Source: Thermofilum sp. (GTDB lineage: Archaea; Thermoproteota; Thermoprotei; Thermofilales; Thermofilaceae). Taken from it: a stretch of DNA of 64,000 bases. Within the stretch, counting starts at the first letter, position 1. Every line of letters starts with the position of its first letter. Positions 21,105 through 29,195 of this stretch are shown piece after piece. The notes under the pieces are model-generated. The model was not told the origin of the DNA, made no database searches, and worked only from the letters and a program-made list of their open reading frames with translations. The stretch is from contig JAVYKX010000001.1 in assembly GCA_038741495.1 (NCBI GenBank), forward strand, positions 304,918 to 368,917, given 5' to 3'. The translations under genes and the position numbers were made by a program.

Positions 21105-21698
21105 TCAAATCGTTGAGGCTCTCTCCCCCGAGCTTACCCCCTTAACGAATTTCATCAATTTCTCGGGCACTCCCTTCTCAGCTATCTCGCCGTGGTCTAC
21201 GTCGAGCTGTAGGAGCGGCTTGGGCAGCTTACCCTCTTCGATCAGCTTCAGGAGCTCTTCCATGAAGACTCCCGCACCCTCCACCTTTTCGGAGGGTTGA
21301 AGCTTCTCGGCTTGCGGCTCGCCCATCCAGGAAGGGTTGCTCGTAGTCTTTTCGAGAGCGCAGGAGGGGCTGCCCCTCACACCCAGCAGCACGTACTCAC
21401 AGCCGTCGCGGGCGAGCTCGGCGATCAGCTTCACGTACGGCTCCAGGAGCTTCCTCGCGAAATCCCTATAAGATATCGTGTCGTACTGCTCCCTGCTCAT
21501 CCACCACCTCCTCATCCCGAGGTAGATGACTTCAGGGCAGGGGAGCTGGACGATCCCGTAACCCTGGTCTACTAGGAGTTTCACGAGAGCTGCTACGGAG
21601 CCCGGGTGGCTGGCGAGCGGCTTCACCACCGTGTTCTGGTTCAGCAGGCAGTGCGCAACGACGGCGAGCCTCCTGCCCCTAACGTCTCCTCTACTCAT
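21105..21698 (-). CDS. TudS/DUF523-related putative desulfidase
   Basis: A 197-residue protein with three conserved cysteine sites: AHCLLNQN near 17, QLPCPE near 54 and GVRGSPSC near 113. These match the DUF523/TudS group, in which thiouracil desulfidase holds a [4Fe-4S] cluster, and especially the CD3072-like branch. It may remove sulfur from a small molecule or have another Fe-S role. It starts at the divergent TATA region shared with the hydrogenase endopeptidase gene and ends just after tRNA-Gln on the other strand. Substrate not known. Confidence 0.75.
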   Translation of the reverse strand: MSRGDVRGRRLAVVAHCLLNQNTVVKPLASHPGSVAALVKLLVDQGYGIVQLPCPEVIYLGMRRWWMSREQYDTISYRDFARKLLEPYVKLIAELARDGCEYVLLGVRGSPSCALEKTTSNPSWMGEPQAEKLQPSEKVEGAGVFMEELLKLIEEGKLPKPLLQLDVDHGEIAEKGVPEKLMKFVKGVSSGERASTI

Positions 21699-21770: not shown

Positions 21771-22307
21771 ATGGGCTGCGAGTCCGTGCTAGTAGTCGGA
21801 GTGGGCAACAGGCTCTACGGCGACGATGGGGCGGGCAGCTGCCTCGCCGAATCCCTTAGGAGGTGTCACCCGGAGCTGAACGTCGAAGTCCACGAGACGC
21901 TAAGCTTCTGGGAGACCGGAATCTTCGAGGGCAGGTCGCTGGTCGTGATCGCGGACGCTGTAAACGCTCAGCCACTCGGCAGCCCGAAGCTCTACAAGCT
22001 CGAGCCGCGCGCCCTACCCCCAGAGGAGGTGAGCAGCCTGCTGTACTCGGCAGACCCCCACGACGCGAGCCCAGCTCTCCTCGTGACTCTTGCCCACGCA
22101 GCTGGGGTATTAAAGGGCGACTGCTACCTCCTGGGGATACCGGCGGCGAGGGTCGAGCTGGGCTTCGGCTTATCCGAGGAGGCTTTGAGGGCGATGGCTC
22201 TAGCGCTCCCCCTCCTCGAGCGCCTACTCAGCCGCTACGGGTGCAGCGTGAACTTGAAGCGGGAATGCCTCGAGAACGCTTTCCGGGAGTGCGGCGCGAT
22301 GAGGTAG
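21771..22307 (+). CDS. Hydrogenase maturation endopeptidase (HyaD/HycI family)
   Basis: A 178-residue protease that trims the C-terminus of the [NiFe] hydrogenase large subunit after nickel insertion. VVGVGNRLYGDDGAG is the family's N-terminal motif with a nickel-sensing Asp; IADAV holds the second acidic residue and SADPHDAS the histidine. Its substrate is very likely the large subunit at 26636-28507, which carries a 24-residue tail after the DPCLACAVH motif. ATG start. It converges on the hyp-operon gene, with only 6 nt between stops. Confidence 0.88.
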   Translation: MGCESVLVVGVGNRLYGDDGAGSCLAESLRRCHPELNVEVHETLSFWETGIFEGRSLVVIADAVNAQPLGSPKLYKLEPRALPPEEVSSLLYSADPHDASPALLVTLAHAAGVLKGDCYLLGIPAARVELGFGLSEEALRAMALALPLLERLLSRYGCSVNLKRECLENAFRECGAMR

Positions 22308-22313
22308 CGGTGG

Positions 22314-22739
22314 TCAGCCTTCACCGCCCGCGCAGAGCCGCTCCAGAGCCTCTAGCGCCAGCCGGTAGGCAGCGCTGCTCGTCGCGGCAGATACCCGGAC
22401 GGCCGTGAAGGGCCTCCCGAGGAACACTCGGAGGGCATCTATGCTCCCGTCAACCGACACGTCGCCAGCGAGCCCCAGCCACAGGCCTCCGCTCTCCACT
22501 AGTTCCAGAGCGCCTGCCGCGCCTTCCGGCGGGCTGACGGTCGATACCTCCACCCAGTCACCTGCAGCCGGCTCGACGCAGCCGACGAGGATCAGCTCCC
22601 TGTCGCCAGCTATGTCCGCGATGCTGAGCGCGTCCGCGAGGCCCTCTCCTAGTGTGCAGCTGCCCAGAGTCTTAACTCTCTCCAGCAGCTCCAGCAGGCC
22701 TCTCCCGCACTCGCTCAGCACGTGAGCTTTCACTGCCAC
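22314..22739 (-). CDS. Unrecognised protein, last gene of the hyp operon
   Basis: About 140 residues, alpha/beta in character (GLADALSIADIAGD, RELILVGCVEPAAGDWVEV). Cysteines near 10, 27, 53 and 135. No known family. The start is uncertain: TTG 22766, GTG 22739 and GTG 22733 are all in frame and all inside the previous gene's 3' end, giving overlaps of 62-95 nt. It is transcribed with hypA and the MinD-type hypB and probably helps hydrogenase assembly, for example as an accessory or specificity factor; that is inference from position. Confidence 0.6.
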   Translation of the reverse strand: MAVKAHVLSECGRGLLELLERVKTLGSCTLGEGLADALSIADIAGDRELILVGCVEPAAGDWVEVSTVSPPEGAAGALELVESGGLWLGLAGDVSVDGSIDALRVFLGRPFTAVRVSAATSSAAYRLALEALERLCAGGEG

Positions 22740-23004
22740 GTAGCGCTCTTTCGAGCTCTTCGGCAAGGTCGCCCACCTCGTTCAAGCCGAGAAGCCTGGC
22801 GATCTCCGCCTTTAGCTCTTCCGGCTTAGGCTGCCTAGGCGGCTTGAACCCGTAGAGAGCCCGGGCGAGCTCCTCGCCGGCGGCTCGCTTAAGCTCCCCC
22901 AGCAGGGCTTCCTCAGCGGCTTCCCTCACGCTTCCCAGCGCTCTGCTGAGCTTTGCCAGCAGCCTCGCAAGCTCCACGAGGTCGCTGCTATACGATTTAG
23001 ACAC
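22672..23004 (-). CDS. Small helical unrecognised protein in the hyp operon
   Basis: About 110 residues, almost entirely helix-forming and charged (LVELARLLAKLSRALGSV, EEALLGELKRAAGEELARAL, EEELERALRGSE-like end). A central linker FKPPRQPKPEELKAEIA is proline-rich. No cysteines, no membrane segment. Start GTG 23004 gives an 8-nt overlap with the hypB-like gene; GTG 23013 is also in frame. It could be a small adaptor for HypA/HypB. I know of no named family. Confidence 0.55.
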   Translation of the reverse strand: MSKSYSSDLVELARLLAKLSRALGSVREAAEEALLGELKRAAGEELARALYGFKPPRQPKPEELKAEIARLLGLNEVGDLAEELERALRGSESSRAERVRERPAGAAGES

Positions 23005-23749
23005 GCGGAACACCTAGAATCTTCGCGGCAAGCTTCTCGAGAGCTAGCGCGGCCCGCGTGGATAGAAGCTTCTCAGGCGAGCCCACGGAGCCCCTAAGCT
23101 CCTCGTCGTAAGGGATCAGTCCGAGGTGGGTGAAGCCCAGGGACGCAGCCTCCTCTAGGAGGGCCGGCTCGCCGCTGTGGGCCATGTTCTCCAGCACGCC
23201 CGCCCAGGCCACCTTCTCCTCCTTCAGGAGCTGGAGGAGCCTCCTCACGCTGCTAACGCTCAAGTAGTCCTGCGTGGTGACGACCAGCGGCTTAGCTCCG
23301 AGGCTTATCGCCTCCAGCAGCTCGTCCTTCGCGCCCGGAGGCAGGTCCAGAACCATAGCGTCGAGGGCACCCCACTCGTGGCTGATGATCAGCTCTAGCA
23401 TCGCATCGGTAGCGGAGTTCCCTCGAAGCGCGAAAGGCCGCCCTCTCGTGAAGAGGACGGGCGTCGCCAGCTTCAACCCAGCGACCTCTAAAGGCTTCAC
23501 GCCCTCTCCCTCCTCCACTCCCGCCCTCTCCGCATCCACGCCGAGAACCAGATGAGTGGAAGCGTTCGTGAAATCGAGGTCCATGAGGCCCACTCTCAGC
23601 CCCCGGCGCGCCAGCAGCAGGCTCAGGAGGCAGGCGAGAGTGGTTTTTCCCACACCGCCTTTCGAGCTTGCGATAGCGTAGACTCTGCCCACCTTGGAGA
23701 AGATCCTCCTCGCGTGTACCGCTCGCGGGTCGACCTCCACCCTACTCAC
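22997..23749 (-). CDS. hypB: Mrp/MinD-type ATPase acting as HypB in hydrogenase maturation
   Basis: A 250-residue deviant Walker ATPase: SKGGVGKTT at 29-37 with the MinD-type extra lysine, MDLDFTNAS after it, and LDLPPGAKDE as Walker B. In Thermococcus the HypB for [NiFe] hydrogenase is such a Mrp/MinD ATPase, not the usual GTPase, and it binds HypA. Here it overlaps hypA by 8 nt, so the same role (ATP-driven HypA conformational switch and nickel delivery) is likely. No CxxC scaffold for an Fe-S cluster is seen. Confidence 0.85.
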   Translation of the reverse strand: MSRVEVDPRAVHARRIFSKVGRVYAIASSKGGVGKTTLACLLSLLLARRGLRVGLMDLDFTNASTHLVLGVDAERAGVEEGEGVKPLEVAGLKLATPVLFTRGRPFALRGNSATDAMLELIISHEWGALDAMVLDLPPGAKDELLEAISLGAKPLVVTTQDYLSVSSVRRLLQLLKEEKVAWAGVLENMAHSGEPALLEEAASLGFTHLGLIPYDEELRGSVGSPEKLLSTRAALALEKLAAKILGVPRV

Positions 23750-24134
23750 CCAGCTCGAAAGAGAGCCTGATACCCCTCCCTTTAACGATCTCGAAATCCC
23801 CGCTCCCGCAGGAGGGGCACTTCAGGAACGCGTATGCTGCCTCAGGCATGAAGTGGATCAGCTCTCTCACGTCCACCCCAGCTTCGACATCGCCCAGCCC
23901 CCACCCCCTCCCGCACCGCCTGCACTTGAACTCTGCGTTTTCAGTGACTACCTCGTAGTGTAGGGGGATTCCGGCGTCGTCCAAAGCTACGTCGAGGTAT
24001 TCTTTCAGAACTCCGGTATCGATAGCTTGAAGTTCGCCAGCGATCACTTTGACTTTCCTGACTCTACCGCCCTCTCTAGAGTAGACTTCCTGGATTGCTG
24101 AAAGAACCGCCGCCGCTATAGATGATTCGTGCAA
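23742..24134 (-). CDS. hypA: HypA hydrogenase nickel chaperone
   Basis: A 130-residue nickel donor. MHE at the N-terminus supplies the nickel-binding His2 and Glu3. Zinc is held by C71/C74 (CRRC) and C106/C109 (CPSC), with the long insertion between the pairs that archaeal HypA proteins carry. First gene of a four-gene operon with the MinD-type HypB and two unknown proteins. It is divergent from the hydrogenase structural operon across a 200-nt spacer, and both are probably controlled from there. Confidence 0.92.
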   Translation of the reverse strand: MHESSIAAAVLSAIQEVYSREGGRVRKVKVIAGELQAIDTGVLKEYLDVALDDAGIPLHYEVVTENAEFKCRRCGRGWGLGDVEAGVDVRELIHFMPEAAYAFLKCPSCGSGDFEIVKGRGIRLSFELGE

Positions 24135-24334: not shown

Positions 24335-25645
24335 TTGGGAGAGGCGCTGCGGCAGAAACCAATGCTGTCTAGGAGGGACTTTCTAAAAGTGAGCGCTGCC
24401 AGCGCCCTCCTAGCGACGCTGGACTGGGATAAAGTTGTTAAAGCCGCAGCTGAAACTATACAAAAAGGTAAGTACAACATTGTCTGGGTGGAGTTCCAGT
24501 CCTGCATGGGCGACACCGGCGCGCTGCTTCTCGGAACGGATCCCGACGTGATACAGGTTCTCGCGGGCCACTTCCACGTAGTCGGCCCAGGTGCTGTCGC
24601 GCTTCCATTCCAGCCTGCAGTGATGCCGGAGTGGGGGGAGGGGGCTCTCGACATCCTGAAGGCTGCAGCGAAGGGGGAGCTCGACCCCTTTGTGCTCGTG
24701 CTCGAGGGAAGCGTTGCTGCCGACGAGAAGGCGGGCGGGCCGAAGGGCAGCGACTTGTGGTGCTACGTCGGCGAGGAGGGGGGTAGGCTGATTTCAGCGC
24801 TCGAGTGGATGAGGCGCCTCCTTCCCAGAGCCGCTGCCCTCGTGGCTGTGGGTACCTGCGCCGCCTACGGCGGAATCCGAGCTAACCAGATACTGGACCC
24901 GGACTTCTTCAAGAAGTACGGATTCGACCTCTTCGAGAAGTTCCCCGGCGGCTGGAGCAAGTCGCCCACCAGCACAGTTGGCGTTTTCGACAACCCGAGG
25001 GGCTTCAAGGGCCTGCTCCACCTTCTGCCGGAGGCGGAGCCCTTCAGGAAGTTCGCAGACGGGGAGCCCTGCACCCTCTTCAAGGACTGCAAGCCGGTCA
25101 TCGCGGTGCCCGGCTGCCCAGCCAACGGCGACGCGACCCTGAAAACGCTAGCCCACGTAGTCCTCGCGCTGGAGGGCCTGCTGCCGCTCACGCGTGACCA
25201 GTTCGACGAGTACGGGAGGCCCAAGTTCCTCTTCGGTGAAACTACCCACAACCAGTGCCCGAGGGCGGGGCACTACGCTGCGGGCAGGTGGCGGAAGTAC
25301 CCCGGCGAGGGCACCGAGTACTGCCTCTGGGGTGTCGGCTGCAAGGGCCCCGTATCGCACTGCCCGTGGAACAGGCTCGGCTGGGTGAACGGTGTCGGCG
25401 GCTGCACGAGGCAGGGCTCTGTCTGCATGGGCTGCCACGAGCCGGGCTTCACCGACTCGTACGAGCCGTTCTTCCAGAAGCTCCCGTACGTCTTCGCCAG
25501 CGATGAGGCGCTGAGGGCTGCTCTAGCCGGCATTGTCGCCGGGGCAGCCGCCGTGGGCGCAGCCGGCGCTGTCGCAGCCTTCGCTAAGGCGAGGAGAGCC
25601 GGGAAGTCGGAGGAGAAAGCCAGTGCGGGTGGAGGGGATGGCTAG
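24335..25645 (+). CDS. [NiFe] hydrogenase small subunit, Tat-exported, membrane-anchored
   Basis: A 436-residue electron-transfer subunit. Tat signal SRRDFLK at 12-18. Proximal cluster: C57 in QSCMGDT, C175 (GTCA) and C261 (PGCP), but the second cysteine of the usual CxxC is Asp60. Distal cluster: H305, C308, C330, C336. Medial: C343, C364, C367, plus C357 where most enzymes have proline, which suggests a 4Fe medial cluster. A hydrophobic helix near 397-415 anchors it. Start TTG 24335 or ATG 24362; both keep the Tat motif. Overlaps the cytochrome gene by 8 nt. Confidence 0.93.
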   Translation: MGEALRQKPMLSRRDFLKVSAASALLATLDWDKVVKAAAETIQKGKYNIVWVEFQSCMGDTGALLLGTDPDVIQVLAGHFHVVGPGAVALPFQPAVMPEWGEGALDILKAAAKGELDPFVLVLEGSVAADEKAGGPKGSDLWCYVGEEGGRLISALEWMRRLLPRAAALVAVGTCAAYGGIRANQILDPDFFKKYGFDLFEKFPGGWSKSPTSTVGVFDNPRGFKGLLHLLPEAEPFRKFADGEPCTLFKDCKPVIAVPGCPANGDATLKTLAHVVLALEGLLPLTRDQFDEYGRPKFLFGETTHNQCPRAGHYAAGRWRKYPGEGTEYCLWGVGCKGPVSHCPWNRLGWVNGVGGCTRQGSVCMGCHEPGFTDSYEPFFQKLPYVFASDEALRAALAGIVAGAAAVGAAGAVAAFAKARRAGKSEEKASAGGGDG

Positions 25646-26639
25646 CACCGGGAGGATGCTGGCTATCGTCGCTGCTACCGCCCTCCTCTGGTCTCTCACA
25701 GGCACTCTCGTGTACTGGGTGGCTCTGGCACCCATCCTGCCGTCGCTGGGAGGGATCGTAGCGCATGTCCTCGCACCCCCCTCTCTGTCCTGCGTGCTAG
25801 CTCCCGATACGGGTTGCGGAGCCGCCTGGTGGTCATTGCTCGTAAAAGTTCTCTTCTCGCTCGCAGCCATCCTGCTGGTCTTTCTCGGAGTCGTGGCAAC
25901 CGTGAGGTACATCCGCGCAGAGCGCGACGTTAAGATCGGCGAGGGCGGGGGCGCGGAGGAGAGGTACATAGAGAGGCTCGGCAAAGTGGATATAGCTTCC
26001 CACCTGTCAGTGCTCCTTGGGGGCTTCCTCGCAGGGATAACGGGTTTCACCATGTACTTCGCGGACAACCCCTTCATCTACTTCTTCGTCTATCCGCTGC
26101 TCAGCCGCGAGGCGCTGGCAAACCTCCACGTTGTGGGTGGCTTCGCGATGGCTGCCGGCGTCGCTCTCTACCTCTCCTACTACGTGACCGACTTCGTCTT
26201 GCACCTGCCGGGCCTGGGCTTCAAGAGAGCTCTCTCGAGGTACTACTTCGTGAGGTTGATCCCCACCCTCCCCCGGGACCTCACGCAGTACTTCGCCTGG
26301 CTCTTCGGCCTCCGGAAAGAGCACCCGAAGTACCACAAGTATATGCCCTCGCAAGTCCTCGCCTACTACTCCACAGGAGTGCTCGTCATGCTGGTCGGCC
26401 TCACAGGCCTCGGGATGGTGATCTGGGGGATACGGTTCCTGAGCGGGCTCGCTTGGTGGCTCCACGTCTACGCCGCCGTGGCGCTAACCGCTCTGATAGC
26501 TTTCCACGTTGTCATGGGCCACCTGAGGCCGATCCACTTCCCGATCGATAAGACGTTCCTGACGGGGCGCGTGCCCCTGGGTAAAGCCCGGGAGGAGTGG
26601 CCTCTCTGGGTTGAGGAGGTTACAGGTGGTAGGGTATGA
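25638..26639 (+). CDS. Hydrogenase cytochrome b-type membrane subunit
   Basis: About 333 residues with an extra N-terminal membrane pair and a four-helix cytochrome b core. Candidate haem ligands are in SHLSVLLGGF, NLHVVGGF, FVLHLPG, WLHVYAA and AFHVVMGH. It should pass electrons from the hydrogenase small subunit to the quinone pool. ATG 25638 gives an 8-nt overlap with the small-subunit stop; earlier in-frame starts would run far inside that gene. Its stop overlaps the large-subunit start (ATGA at 26636). Confidence 0.87.
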   Translation: MASTGRMLAIVAATALLWSLTGTLVYWVALAPILPSLGGIVAHVLAPPSLSCVLAPDTGCGAAWWSLLVKVLFSLAAILLVFLGVVATVRYIRAERDVKIGEGGGAEERYIERLGKVDIASHLSVLLGGFLAGITGFTMYFADNPFIYFFVYPLLSREALANLHVVGGFAMAAGVALYLSYYVTDFVLHLPGLGFKRALSRYYFVRLIPTLPRDLTQYFAWLFGLRKEHPKYHKYMPSQVLAYYSTGVLVMLVGLTGLGMVIWGIRFLSGLAWWLHVYAAVALTALIAFHVVMGHLRPIHFPIDKTFLTGRVPLGKAREEWPLWVEEVTGGRV

Positions 26640-28507
26640 GCGTGAGGGAGCTGTTAGTAGACCCGATAACTAGGGTTGAAGGGCACATAGGAGCGCGGCT
26701 CATCGTAGACGTAGCCACGAGGAAGCCCGACCCTGCCAGCGTGCGCGTCTTCGCGACGATGTTCACAGGCTTCGAGGTCTTCCTGCGGGGTAGGCCGCCG
26801 GAGGACGCACCGGCGGTCACTAGCAGGCTCTGCGGCGTGTGCGGTGCAGCCCACGCGAACGCCTCAACGCTGGCGGGGGACATGGCTTACGGCGTCTCCC
26901 CCGAGCCGCTGGGCGTAGCGCTCAGGAACATCGCCTACGCGATGGGCGAGTACCTTTACGACCACTCGATAATCCTCAACCTGCTGGAGGCGCCCGACTA
27001 CAGCGAGCTCCTGGTTAAGAAGTTCACGCCCAGCGTTTGGGAGGCTGCCGCGAAGACTCCGGCGGAGAACAGGGACAGGCACGGCTTCGCGACGATAGCG
27101 GACATAATGCGCGCTTTCAACCCGGTCTCGGGCAAGGTCTGGCAGCAGACCGTGCTATTCCAGAGGATCGCGAGGGAGGCGGGCGTCATCATCTACGGCA
27201 AGTACCCGCACCCCAACGCCCTGATCCCCGGCGGCATCCAGACAGACGTCTTCGACATCGAGGAGAAGCTGGTCGCGATAACCTACAGGCTCGTCAAGCT
27301 GACGGCCTGGGTCAAGTACAACTACTACATCTGGGAGGACCTCCTGAGCTTCTACAAGAACATCGGCTACGAGATGAACGGGCTCACCTACGAGAAGCCT
27401 AGAGTCATGAGCGTCGGCCTCTTCGACGACCCGGAGAGCTACTCCGCGATCGGCGACTACGTCAGCTGGGAGGACTTCTACAAGTCCGTCGACAGCACCG
27501 CGGAGAAGAGAGTTTTCGTGCCGGGCCTCGTCCTCGACGGGAACCTCGTCACGACGAAGTACACCGATATGAACGTCTCAACGATGGAGCACGTCGACAC
27601 CTCGTTCTACCTCGACTGGGCCGACAAGGTTAAGGGCGAAGAGTGGTACACCGAGACGGACCCGCTGGGCAACAAGCTCCTCTGGGGCAAGGCGGACCCG
27701 GCGTACCACCCGTGGAACAAGGTGACCCTGCCCAACCCGGCCGGGAGAGACTGGGCGAAGAAGTACTCGTGGGTCGTCAGAGTCAACATCGCCTGGAAGG
27801 ACGGCAGCATCGGCCCCATCGAGCTCGGCCCCTTCGCCAGAGTCTACGTCCAGTCCAGGAGGTCCGCGAAGACTGCGGGAGGCCTCGTCCAGTCGGGCAA
27901 CGGCGTCATCAGGACTACGCTGCCCAGAGCGGTGGCGGACGAGCTACCCCCTGCCGTGTGGGAGGAGGACACGATCGAGTGGCGCGTCCCCGAGACCAGC
28001 ACCACGATCTACAGGCTCTGGGGCAGGGCGTACTGCCTCCTCGTCGCCGCAGCCGGCGCGTGGCACAACATCCTCGCAGCTCTCCAGCTGGTGAAAGCCG
28101 GGAGGACGGCGACCTCGAGGCCCTGGAGAGTGCCGAGCGGCATCACGAGGGGGGCGGGCTTCAACGAGGCGCCGAGAGGGTCCGTGAGGCACTGGCTGGT
28201 GCAGAGGGACGGGAAGATCCTGAACTACCAGATACACGCCCCCACCACCGAGAACGCTTCCTCGAGGGATGAGGTGAGGGTCACCGACAAGGTGAGGTAC
28301 GCCAGGGCACCCTACGAGGCCGCGGTAGCGAACATCACGGTCACCGAGGAGGTGCCGCCGGACCATTGGGAGGGCTTAGACGTCGTCAGAGCGGTGAGGA
28401 GCTTCGACCCGTGCCTCGCCTGCGCAGTCCACATAGAGTTCAGGAACAACGGCCACGTGTACAGAGCCCTGGATAAGATAGTCCGCGACGCGACCTGCTC
28501 CGTCTAG
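26636..28507 (+). CDS. [NiFe] hydrogenase large (catalytic) subunit
   Basis: A 623-residue subunit carrying the NiFe(CN)2CO site. N-terminal motif RLCGVCGAAH (C66, C69, H73) and C-terminal DPCLACAVH (591-599; C593, C596) supply the four cysteine ligands. RVEGH near 13-17 holds the conserved Glu. A 24-residue tail after His599 would be removed by the endopeptidase at 21771. No signal peptide, so it travels with the Tat-bearing small subunit. The gene order small-cytochrome b-large resembles crenarchaeal group 1 uptake enzymes. ATG start overlapping the cytochrome stop by 4 nt. Confidence 0.95.
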   Translation: MSVRELLVDPITRVEGHIGARLIVDVATRKPDPASVRVFATMFTGFEVFLRGRPPEDAPAVTSRLCGVCGAAHANASTLAGDMAYGVSPEPLGVALRNIAYAMGEYLYDHSIILNLLEAPDYSELLVKKFTPSVWEAAAKTPAENRDRHGFATIADIMRAFNPVSGKVWQQTVLFQRIAREAGVIIYGKYPHPNALIPGGIQTDVFDIEEKLVAITYRLVKLTAWVKYNYYIWEDLLSFYKNIGYEMNGLTYEKPRVMSVGLFDDPESYSAIGDYVSWEDFYKSVDSTAEKRVFVPGLVLDGNLVTTKYTDMNVSTMEHVDTSFYLDWADKVKGEEWYTETDPLGNKLLWGKADPAYHPWNKVTLPNPAGRDWAKKYSWVVRVNIAWKDGSIGPIELGPFARVYVQSRRSAKTAGGLVQSGNGVIRTTLPRAVADELPPAVWEEDTIEWRVPETSTTIYRLWGRAYCLLVAAAGAWHNILAALQLVKAGRTATSRPWRVPSGITRGAGFNEAPRGSVRHWLVQRDGKILNYQIHAPTTENASSRDEVRVTDKVRYARAPYEAAVANITVTEEVPPDHWEGLDVVRAVRSFDPCLACAVHIEFRNNGHVYRALDKIVRDATCSV

Positions 28508-28586: not shown

Positions 28587-29195
28587 ATGCTGAAGGAGGA
28601 GGTTCTGGAGGAGATTGCCCGCAGAGCCCTGTTCTCCGCAGTTAAGTACGGTTTCCCCTTAGAGTTCAGCGTCGAAAGAGGCTACGTGCGGCTGAGCTAT
28701 AGGGGGAGGGTAGCGCGCTACAGAGTGCTCGAGCTGCTAGACCCTTCCGGAAGAGTCTCGGGCATTGGCTTCGCGCTCCCAGGCCTAGAGGCGTACTCCA
28801 TCCGCATAGCGGAGGCTGCGGCACTCCCTGAGCAGGAGTTCAGCTTAGTGTTCGAGAACATTCCGGCAGCAGTCGGCCTAGATGTGCGATTCATGTCTCC
28901 CGCCGAGACAGATATCTGGGTGAGGCGCTTCAAGCTAGCCGGCAAGCTCACGCGAGTCGAGAGCCCACCCGAGCCCCTCGAGAAGCTTCGCAGCCTGGGC
29001 TTAGAGGTCTGGGCTACCCCGGACAGCATCGACTACGCTGTGGGGAAAGAGGGCGTCGTGGGGCTATGGTACATACCTCTCTTCAACCGTACGGACTTCG
29101 CGATGGAAGTCCAGGAAAAGCTGGGTGTGCACCGCTGGGGGGTTACCGCGGAGGAGGTGAGGAGGCTGCTAGGCCTTCAGGTTCCGCGGCGCTGA
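28587..29195 (+). CDS. Unrecognised protein downstream of the hydrogenase
   Basis: A 202-residue soluble protein with mixed alpha/beta content (EVLEEIARRALFSAVKYG, YVRLSYRGRVARYRVLELL, SLVFENIPAAVGLDVRF). No cysteines, membrane helices or known motif. ATG start. It lies about 80 nt after the large-subunit stop, beyond a T-rich stretch, so it may or may not belong to that operon. No function can be assigned. Confidence 0.6.
   Translation: MLKEEVLEEIARRALFSAVKYGFPLEFSVERGYVRLSYRGRVARYRVLELLDPSGRVSGIGFALPGLEAYSIRIAEAAALPEQEFSLVFENIPAAVGLDVRFMSPAETDIWVRRFKLAGKLTRVESPPEPLEKLRSLGLEVWATPDSIDYAVGKEGVVGLWYIPLFNRTDFAMEVQEKLGVHRWGVTAEEVRRLLGLQVPRR

Follow-up and report, generated by a model that had tools for sequence, protein, structure and literature searches.

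What are the two small genes at the end of a hydrogenase maturation gene run in Thermofilum sp., and what do their products contribute to the hydrogenase? The genes, here called X1 and X2, have no significant match in Pfam or NCBIfam. They lie in a stretch of 64,000 nucleotides (contig JAVYKX010000001.1, positions 304,918 to 368,917), the whole of which we refer to as the window. An overlapping minus-strand run comprises hypA, a MinD/Mrp-type hypB, X1 and X2, while the hydrogenase genes are on the plus strand (Table 1).

Table 1. Features of the hydrogenase island, in window coordinates
Feature	Position	Strand	Description
HoxM/HybD-type hydrogenase maturation protease	21771..22307	+	GDD loop and conserved His; TIGR00072 70.3 bits (cut-off 47.45)
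X2, divergent HypZ	22314..22766	-	150 aa; TTG start 22766; degenerate HybD/HoxM fold (predicted)
X1/X2 overlap	22672..22766	-	95 nt; X2 in +1 frame relative to X1
X1, divergent HypY	22672..23013	-	Small helical protein, 113 aa; GTG start at 23013
GAGGTG, Shine-Dalgarno-like	22774..22779	-	7 nt upstream of X2 TTG; read from sequence
MinD/Mrp-type HypB	22997..23749	-	P-loop ATPase, 250 aa; Pfam PF10609 E=2e-36
HypA nickel metallochaperone	23742..24134	-	130 aa; Pfam HypA E=3e-17; NCBIfam PRK03824 1.3e-30
hynS, [NiFe] hydrogenase small subunit	24335..25645	+	Tat-type N terminus; ~55-60% identity to Thermofilum-type hynS
Cytochrome-b-like membrane subunit	25533..26639	+	Weak BLAST matches (best E ~2e-17) to membrane subunits of Thermoproteaceae clusters
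hynL, [NiFe] hydrogenase large subunit	26636..28507	+	56-60% identity to nearest homologues
202-aa protein after hynL	28587..29195	+	E=2e-13 to 1e-11 to homologues

X1 has an alternative in-frame GTG start at 23004, which is where the sequence-only reading placed its end, and X2 has alternative GTG starts at 22739 and 22733; with the last of these the X1/X2 overlap shrinks to 62 nt. X1 overlaps hypB by 17 nt, and X2 converges on the hoxM-type protease gene. HynL ends in DPCLACAVH followed by a C-terminal tail, the substrate of the protease. The cytochrome-b-like gene, whose true start is probably downstream of the listed TTG, occupies the place of isp1/isp2 in the relatives. A HypD gene is encoded elsewhere in the genome, and the cofactor pathway is therefore present. 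MinD-type HypB is known in archaea (reported by Sasaki et al. 2013), and its gene stands next to hypA in 20 relatives. For archaeal HypB homologues with ATP hydrolysis, PMC12134894 refers to the same paper.

Two further genes of the island deserve mention. All homologues of the 202-aa protein that we found are encoded behind hynL, in three Pyrodictiaceae-type genomes (L078, L079, L081); by its length and place it is possibly HynZ (201 aa in Acidianus), and in locus L086 a 200-aa ORF that follows the protease resembles it by eye. A TudS-related putative desulfidase (21105-21698, minus strand; NF045597, above cut-off) is encoded near the hydrogenase island.

Relatives of X1 and X2

With X2 alone, tblastn gave no match in 61 close relatives and a degenerate-pattern genome scan found no relatives. 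The lead to the family came from reading group-1 hydrogenase clusters. A 232-aa ORF beside the protease in a genome of the same genus (G003) resembles X1 plus X2 in one frame, and a fused HypY-HypZ protein of 223-232 aa is encoded in six Thermofilum-type genomes (L085, L103, L080, L082, L083, L084). Like the X1/X2 pair, it consists of a helical N-terminal domain and a HypZ C-terminal domain, and its gene is upstream of hoxM. The Thermofilum-type clusters thus have one ORF, whereas the window and the Pyrodictiaceae-type genomes have two that overlap.

In three Pyrodictiaceae-type genomes tblastn with X2 detected relatives of ~170 aa (E=1.4e-7, 2.9e-7 and 1.6e-5), encoded directly upstream of hoxM and overlapping it. 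"Pyrodictiaceae-type" is our inferred label for family f28; the pointer to it is a divergent HypZ-like gene that, with its neighbors, is common to a Pyrolobus MAG (L132:5995-6453, plus strand) and an f28 genome, G125 (L160:1387-1905, minus strand). Neither copy is near hydrogenase genes; the neighbors are a methyltransferase-like gene and a conserved gene of 384-418 aa. Elsewhere in G125 (L086:14877-15705) an X1-like ORF overlaps the hoxM gene itself, hypZ being absent from between the two.

A profile of the Pyrodictiaceae-type sequences ranked X2 best among the 304 ORFs of the window (E=6.1e-8), as did the full HypZ profile at a modest E=3.7e-4. The Thermofilum/Thermoproteaceae HypZ profile in turn recovered the Pyrodictiaceae-type sequences at 1e-12 to 1e-9, and all-against-all BLAST confirmed this chain from X2 to the HypZ proteins of Thermofilum and Thermoproteaceae. 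Profiles built without the Pyrodictiaceae-type sequences missed X2 among the window ORFs, so its membership in the HypZ family is established through those intermediates. X2 is therefore similar to a family found in group-1 hydrogenase clusters; it is also linked to hydrogenase genes in the window itself, lying between hypB and hoxM and near hynS and hynL.

Similar results were obtained for X1. It was the best of the 304 window ORFs both with a profile of its Pyrodictiaceae-type homologues (E=3.1e-11) and with a profile of the helical domain of the fused Thermofilum and the Thermoproteaceae proteins (E=2.2e-6). X1 aligns to the family motif LY.F.PP.QP..EEL...IA...GL; where the Pyrodictiaceae-type homologue reads LYSFNPP.QP.LEELR..IARSMGL, the window counterpart is LYGFKPPRQPKPEELKAEIARLLGL. 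X1 is thus a small helical protein, adjacent to HypZ and similar in sequence to HypY. The shortest, Acidianus-like form of HypY matched the HypY profile weakly (E=0.0035). A match of X1 to the Hpt domain was below cut-off (E=0.008) and was put down to helical composition.

The names come from Acidianus ambivalens, where hypY and hypZ received their names, with no function assigned, as part of the operon hypDCE-hypYZ-hoxM (Laska et al. 2003, as reported in PMC5461723 and PMC8551704). In locus L125 hypD, hypC and hypE are followed by a helical ORF of 71 aa, then by an X2-family member of 144 aa and then by the protease; the hyp names there were assigned by reading the sequences. On gene order and product lengths we equate L125 with the A. 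ambivalens operon, whose HypZ is CAC86894, and from the order hypDCE-hypY-hypZ-hoxM we name X1 HypY and X2 HypZ. Both names rest on gene order, lengths and family membership. We found no functional paper or biochemical data on either protein in the open-access literature.

Coding status and reading of the overlap

X1 and X2 are both real protein-coding genes and not chance ORFs. A codon-usage score trained on other long ORFs of the window changes abruptly from the X1 frame, which it favors to ~22745, to the X2 frame, which it favors from ~22752; by this score only ~25 of the 95 nt of the overlap look dual-coding. Given the switch at ~22752, most of the overlap is X1 run-on: the last ~23 residues of X1, after about position 90, continue into the X2 region. 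In the three Pyrodictiaceae-type genomes (L120, L121, L122) the X1 homologues likewise are upstream of the X2 homologues and overlap them in the +1 frame. Substitutions among these three show a third-position bias in the X1 frame and then in the X2 frame, with the switch ~45 nt past conserved MGL codons. Both frames are therefore protein-coding in the Pyrodictiaceae-type genomes.

The sequence-only reading had described two genes that overlap each other and the MinD-type hypB, and both ORFs are indeed present with the overlaps of 95 and 17 nt. It had also called the 62-95 nt overlap between them unusual; the sizes are confirmed, but the arrangement is a conserved one, its +1 frame being common to the Pyrodictiaceae-type clusters.

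The two frames might also reflect a single gene that was split by a recent frameshift mutation or by an indel in the assembly: within the genus of the window both domains share one ORF, and the coding signal changes abruptly. However, the same +1 split occurs in the three Pyrodictiaceae-type genomes, where both frames are under purifying selection, and the window HynL, on a long branch, groups with these genomes and not with Thermofilum (98/95 support). Since the overlap is conserved and both frames are selected, we rejected an assembly error, a recent frameshift and recent pseudogenization on the conserved frame relation; a broken gene is very improbable. The position of HynL as sister to the Pyrodictiaceae-type sequences, in a genome of Thermofilum-type genus, also suggests that the hydrogenase island may have been acquired horizontally.

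Another possibility is that X1 and X2 are decoded as one HypY-HypZ polypeptide through a conserved programmed +1 ribosomal frameshift, and that this product would act in hydrogenase maturation as a checkpoint, a pseudo-protease that does not cut. Such a product would match the genetically fused HypY-HypZ of other Thermofilum species, and the frameshift would be common to the Pyrodictiaceae-type genomes. On the other hand, the three Pyrodictiaceae-type X2 homologues have a start ATG at one common position, which favors separate translation over frameshifting, and the GAGGTG before X2 would fit independent initiation. X1 and X2 are probably separately translated ORFs, and we regard the frameshift as doubtful.

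A predicted protease fold and its active site

Several comparisons relate HypZ to the maturation protease HoxM. Profile-profile alignment of the two families gave E=2.3e-11 with a probability of 97, TIGR00072 was matched by 11 of 23 HypZ members (best 1.5e-9), and the best match of a HypZ profile search against the PDB was 5ija, a hydrogenase maturation endopeptidase (E=0.0016). By sequence, X2 alone did not match HoxM (E=0.29). Its AlphaFold2 model (pLDDT 82.8, pTM 0.81) has a predicted HybD-like alpha/beta fold, and in a Foldseek search of the PDB the top four hits were hydrogenase maturation peptidases (5ttx, 5ija), with modest scores (E from 2.7e-3 up, TM-scores 0.44-0.55). The model of the fused Thermofilum protein also matched 5ttx, as well as 2kml and 2e85.

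The metal ligands of HybD are E16, D62 and H93. All 27 HoxM sequences keep two residues, the second GDD-loop Asp and the His. In contrast, there is no conserved His among the 23 HypZ sequences, and X2 has neither the His nor the carboxylate of the GDD/E loop, which is lost from the other HypZ proteins as well. An acidic residue near the position of HybD D62 persists in HypZ, and X2 is strongly diverged at the active-site positions. HypZ thus looks like a paralogue of HoxM/HybD that lost its active site and, lacking the invariant His and the loop carboxylate, it is probably non-catalytic.

HypZ could nevertheless be an active, non-standard maturation protease that uses different residues on a second substrate, such as the small subunit or another tail. 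This would agree with the retained fold and the acidic residue near D62, and in Thermoproteus tenax two genes carry a maturation protease annotation, of which HypZ is apparently one (TTX_0029; PMC3189178), so that the kinship with HybD has already been noticed there. However, the missing His, the lost loop carboxylate and the divergence of X2 at these positions speak against activity, and the same genomes encode a separate, intact HoxM. We therefore consider a second active protease unlikely.

Distribution and proposed role

To see what the pair accompanies, we scored 300 genomes of the phylum for HynL (E<=1e-100) and HypZ (E<=1e-5), found in 26 and 31 genomes, respectively. HypZ was present in 24 of the 26 genomes with HynL and in 7 of the 274 without it (Fisher p=5e-27, a value that is indicative only, as related genomes are not independent). 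Most members of one of our alignments (A1) come from genomes picked for having HynL. Three of the seven HypZ matches without HynL were weak (E ~1e-6), and the two of these that we inspected (L161, L162) look like ordinary proteases; the other four are from f31, and in three of them (L155, L156, L158) HypZ is beside more divergent hydrogenase-like genes. The two HynL genomes with no HypZ match were G044 and G231. G044 (L097) is fragmented, with hynS split over three ORFs, and is the sole Thermoproteaceae-type HynL genome without a match.

The dependence on MinD-type hypB was different. The sequence-only reading had tied X1 and X2 to this gene, and they could accordingly be a nickel-insertion factor specific to HypA and HypB, since here the pair comes straight after hypA-hypB and shares nucleotides with hypB. 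HypZ was not associated with MinD-type hypB, however (p=1; 7/14 versus 10/22 relatives). Downstream of their own hypA-MinD-hypB pair, the 20 relatives that we inspected all lack X1/X2, and Thermoproteaceae have HypZ with no MinD-HypB match at E<=1e-20. A nickel factor of this kind is hence highly unlikely: the pair tracks the group-1 hydrogenase and not MinD-type hypB.

Other proposals of that reading fared better. One of the two proteins is small and helical (HypY) and the other has an alpha/beta, HybD-like predicted fold, as it had described, and their assignment as hydrogenase accessory genes agrees with homologues that adjoin hyp genes elsewhere, as in L125, and with a pair that follows HynL. 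The outcome that the sequence-only reading had named as refuting it, neither gene beside hyp genes in other genomes, was thus not observed. They are not new factors, as had been suggested, but a divergent pair of a known, functionally uncharacterized module already named in Acidianus. New here are the identification of X1 and X2, the evidence for a pseudo-protease, the fusion of the two domains and the conservation of the +1 overlap.

The arrangement of the pair varies among genomes. The order hypY-hypZ-hoxM is contiguous in L124 and L125, and hypY is adjacent to hypZ in L154 and L155. Most Thermoproteaceae-type clusters have a ~160-aa HypZ-domain protein near hynS and a separate 68-97-aa helical protein after hoxM, so that HypZ lies apart from HypY. 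In Thermoproteaceae hypZ adjoins hynS and is separated from hoxM, a position that would suit a general hydrogenase chaperone or assembly factor acting in small- or membrane-subunit assembly or in quality control of Tat export, and not as a partner in C-terminal processing. Bacteria have hydrogenase-specific chaperones unrelated to processing, HyaE and HybE, which also count for such a role. On the other hand, the protease homology of HypZ, together with its place beside hoxM in several lineages, suggests a role on the large subunit. We view the chaperone as possible but less probable; by plausibility it is followed by the second active protease, the HypB-linked nickel factor and the broken gene.

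The reading that we prefer, with a probability of roughly 55%, is that X1 and X2 are a HypY-HypZ module accessory to the membrane-bound group-1 [NiFe] hydrogenases of crenarchaea, and that this module would hold or check the HynL precursor before HoxM cuts it. HypY would be the small helical partner of HypZ in a complex, which is suggested by the fusion of the two domains in Thermofilum relatives. Through a surface inherited from the protease, HypYZ may bind unprocessed HynL at the surface recognized by HoxM, or HoxM itself. It would hold or check the precursor while HypA and HypB deliver nickel, and active HoxM would cut the HynL tail afterwards. We infer the physical complex, the binding to HynL or HoxM and the order of these events. 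Against this reading stand the modest sequence and fold scores of X2, the separation of HypZ from HypY in Thermoproteaceae, the two HynL genomes with no HypZ match, and the divergent HypZ-like genes outside hydrogenase loci in G125 and the Pyrolobus MAG. HypYZ thus probably helps to finish the hydrogenase without cutting it, as a non-cutting partner of HoxM in maturation of the large subunit.

Otherwise unannotatable genes thereby gain names, and HypY and HypZ, listed as unknown in the Acidianus operon, become the subject of a testable hypothesis on the control of the final step in archaeal [NiFe] hydrogenase assembly. Its basis is that HypZ appears to be a degenerated form of the maturation protease, fused to or overlapped with HypY, and that the pair accompanies the hydrogenase across several crenarchaeal lineages.

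Two known systems invite comparison. With the endopeptidases HyaD, HybD, HycI and HoxM (TIGR00072, PF01750), HypZ has in common the predicted fold and distant sequence homology; it differs in the missing loop carboxylate and catalytic or metal-binding His, and X2 itself scores in neither library. The Acidianus hydrogenase operon, as reported in PMC5461723 and PMC8551704, resembles the window in that a small protein (70 aa) precedes a ~143-aa protein next to hoxM. In contrast to that operon, the window copies are extremely divergent and overlap out of frame, and they sit after hypA-hypB, convergent to hoxM.
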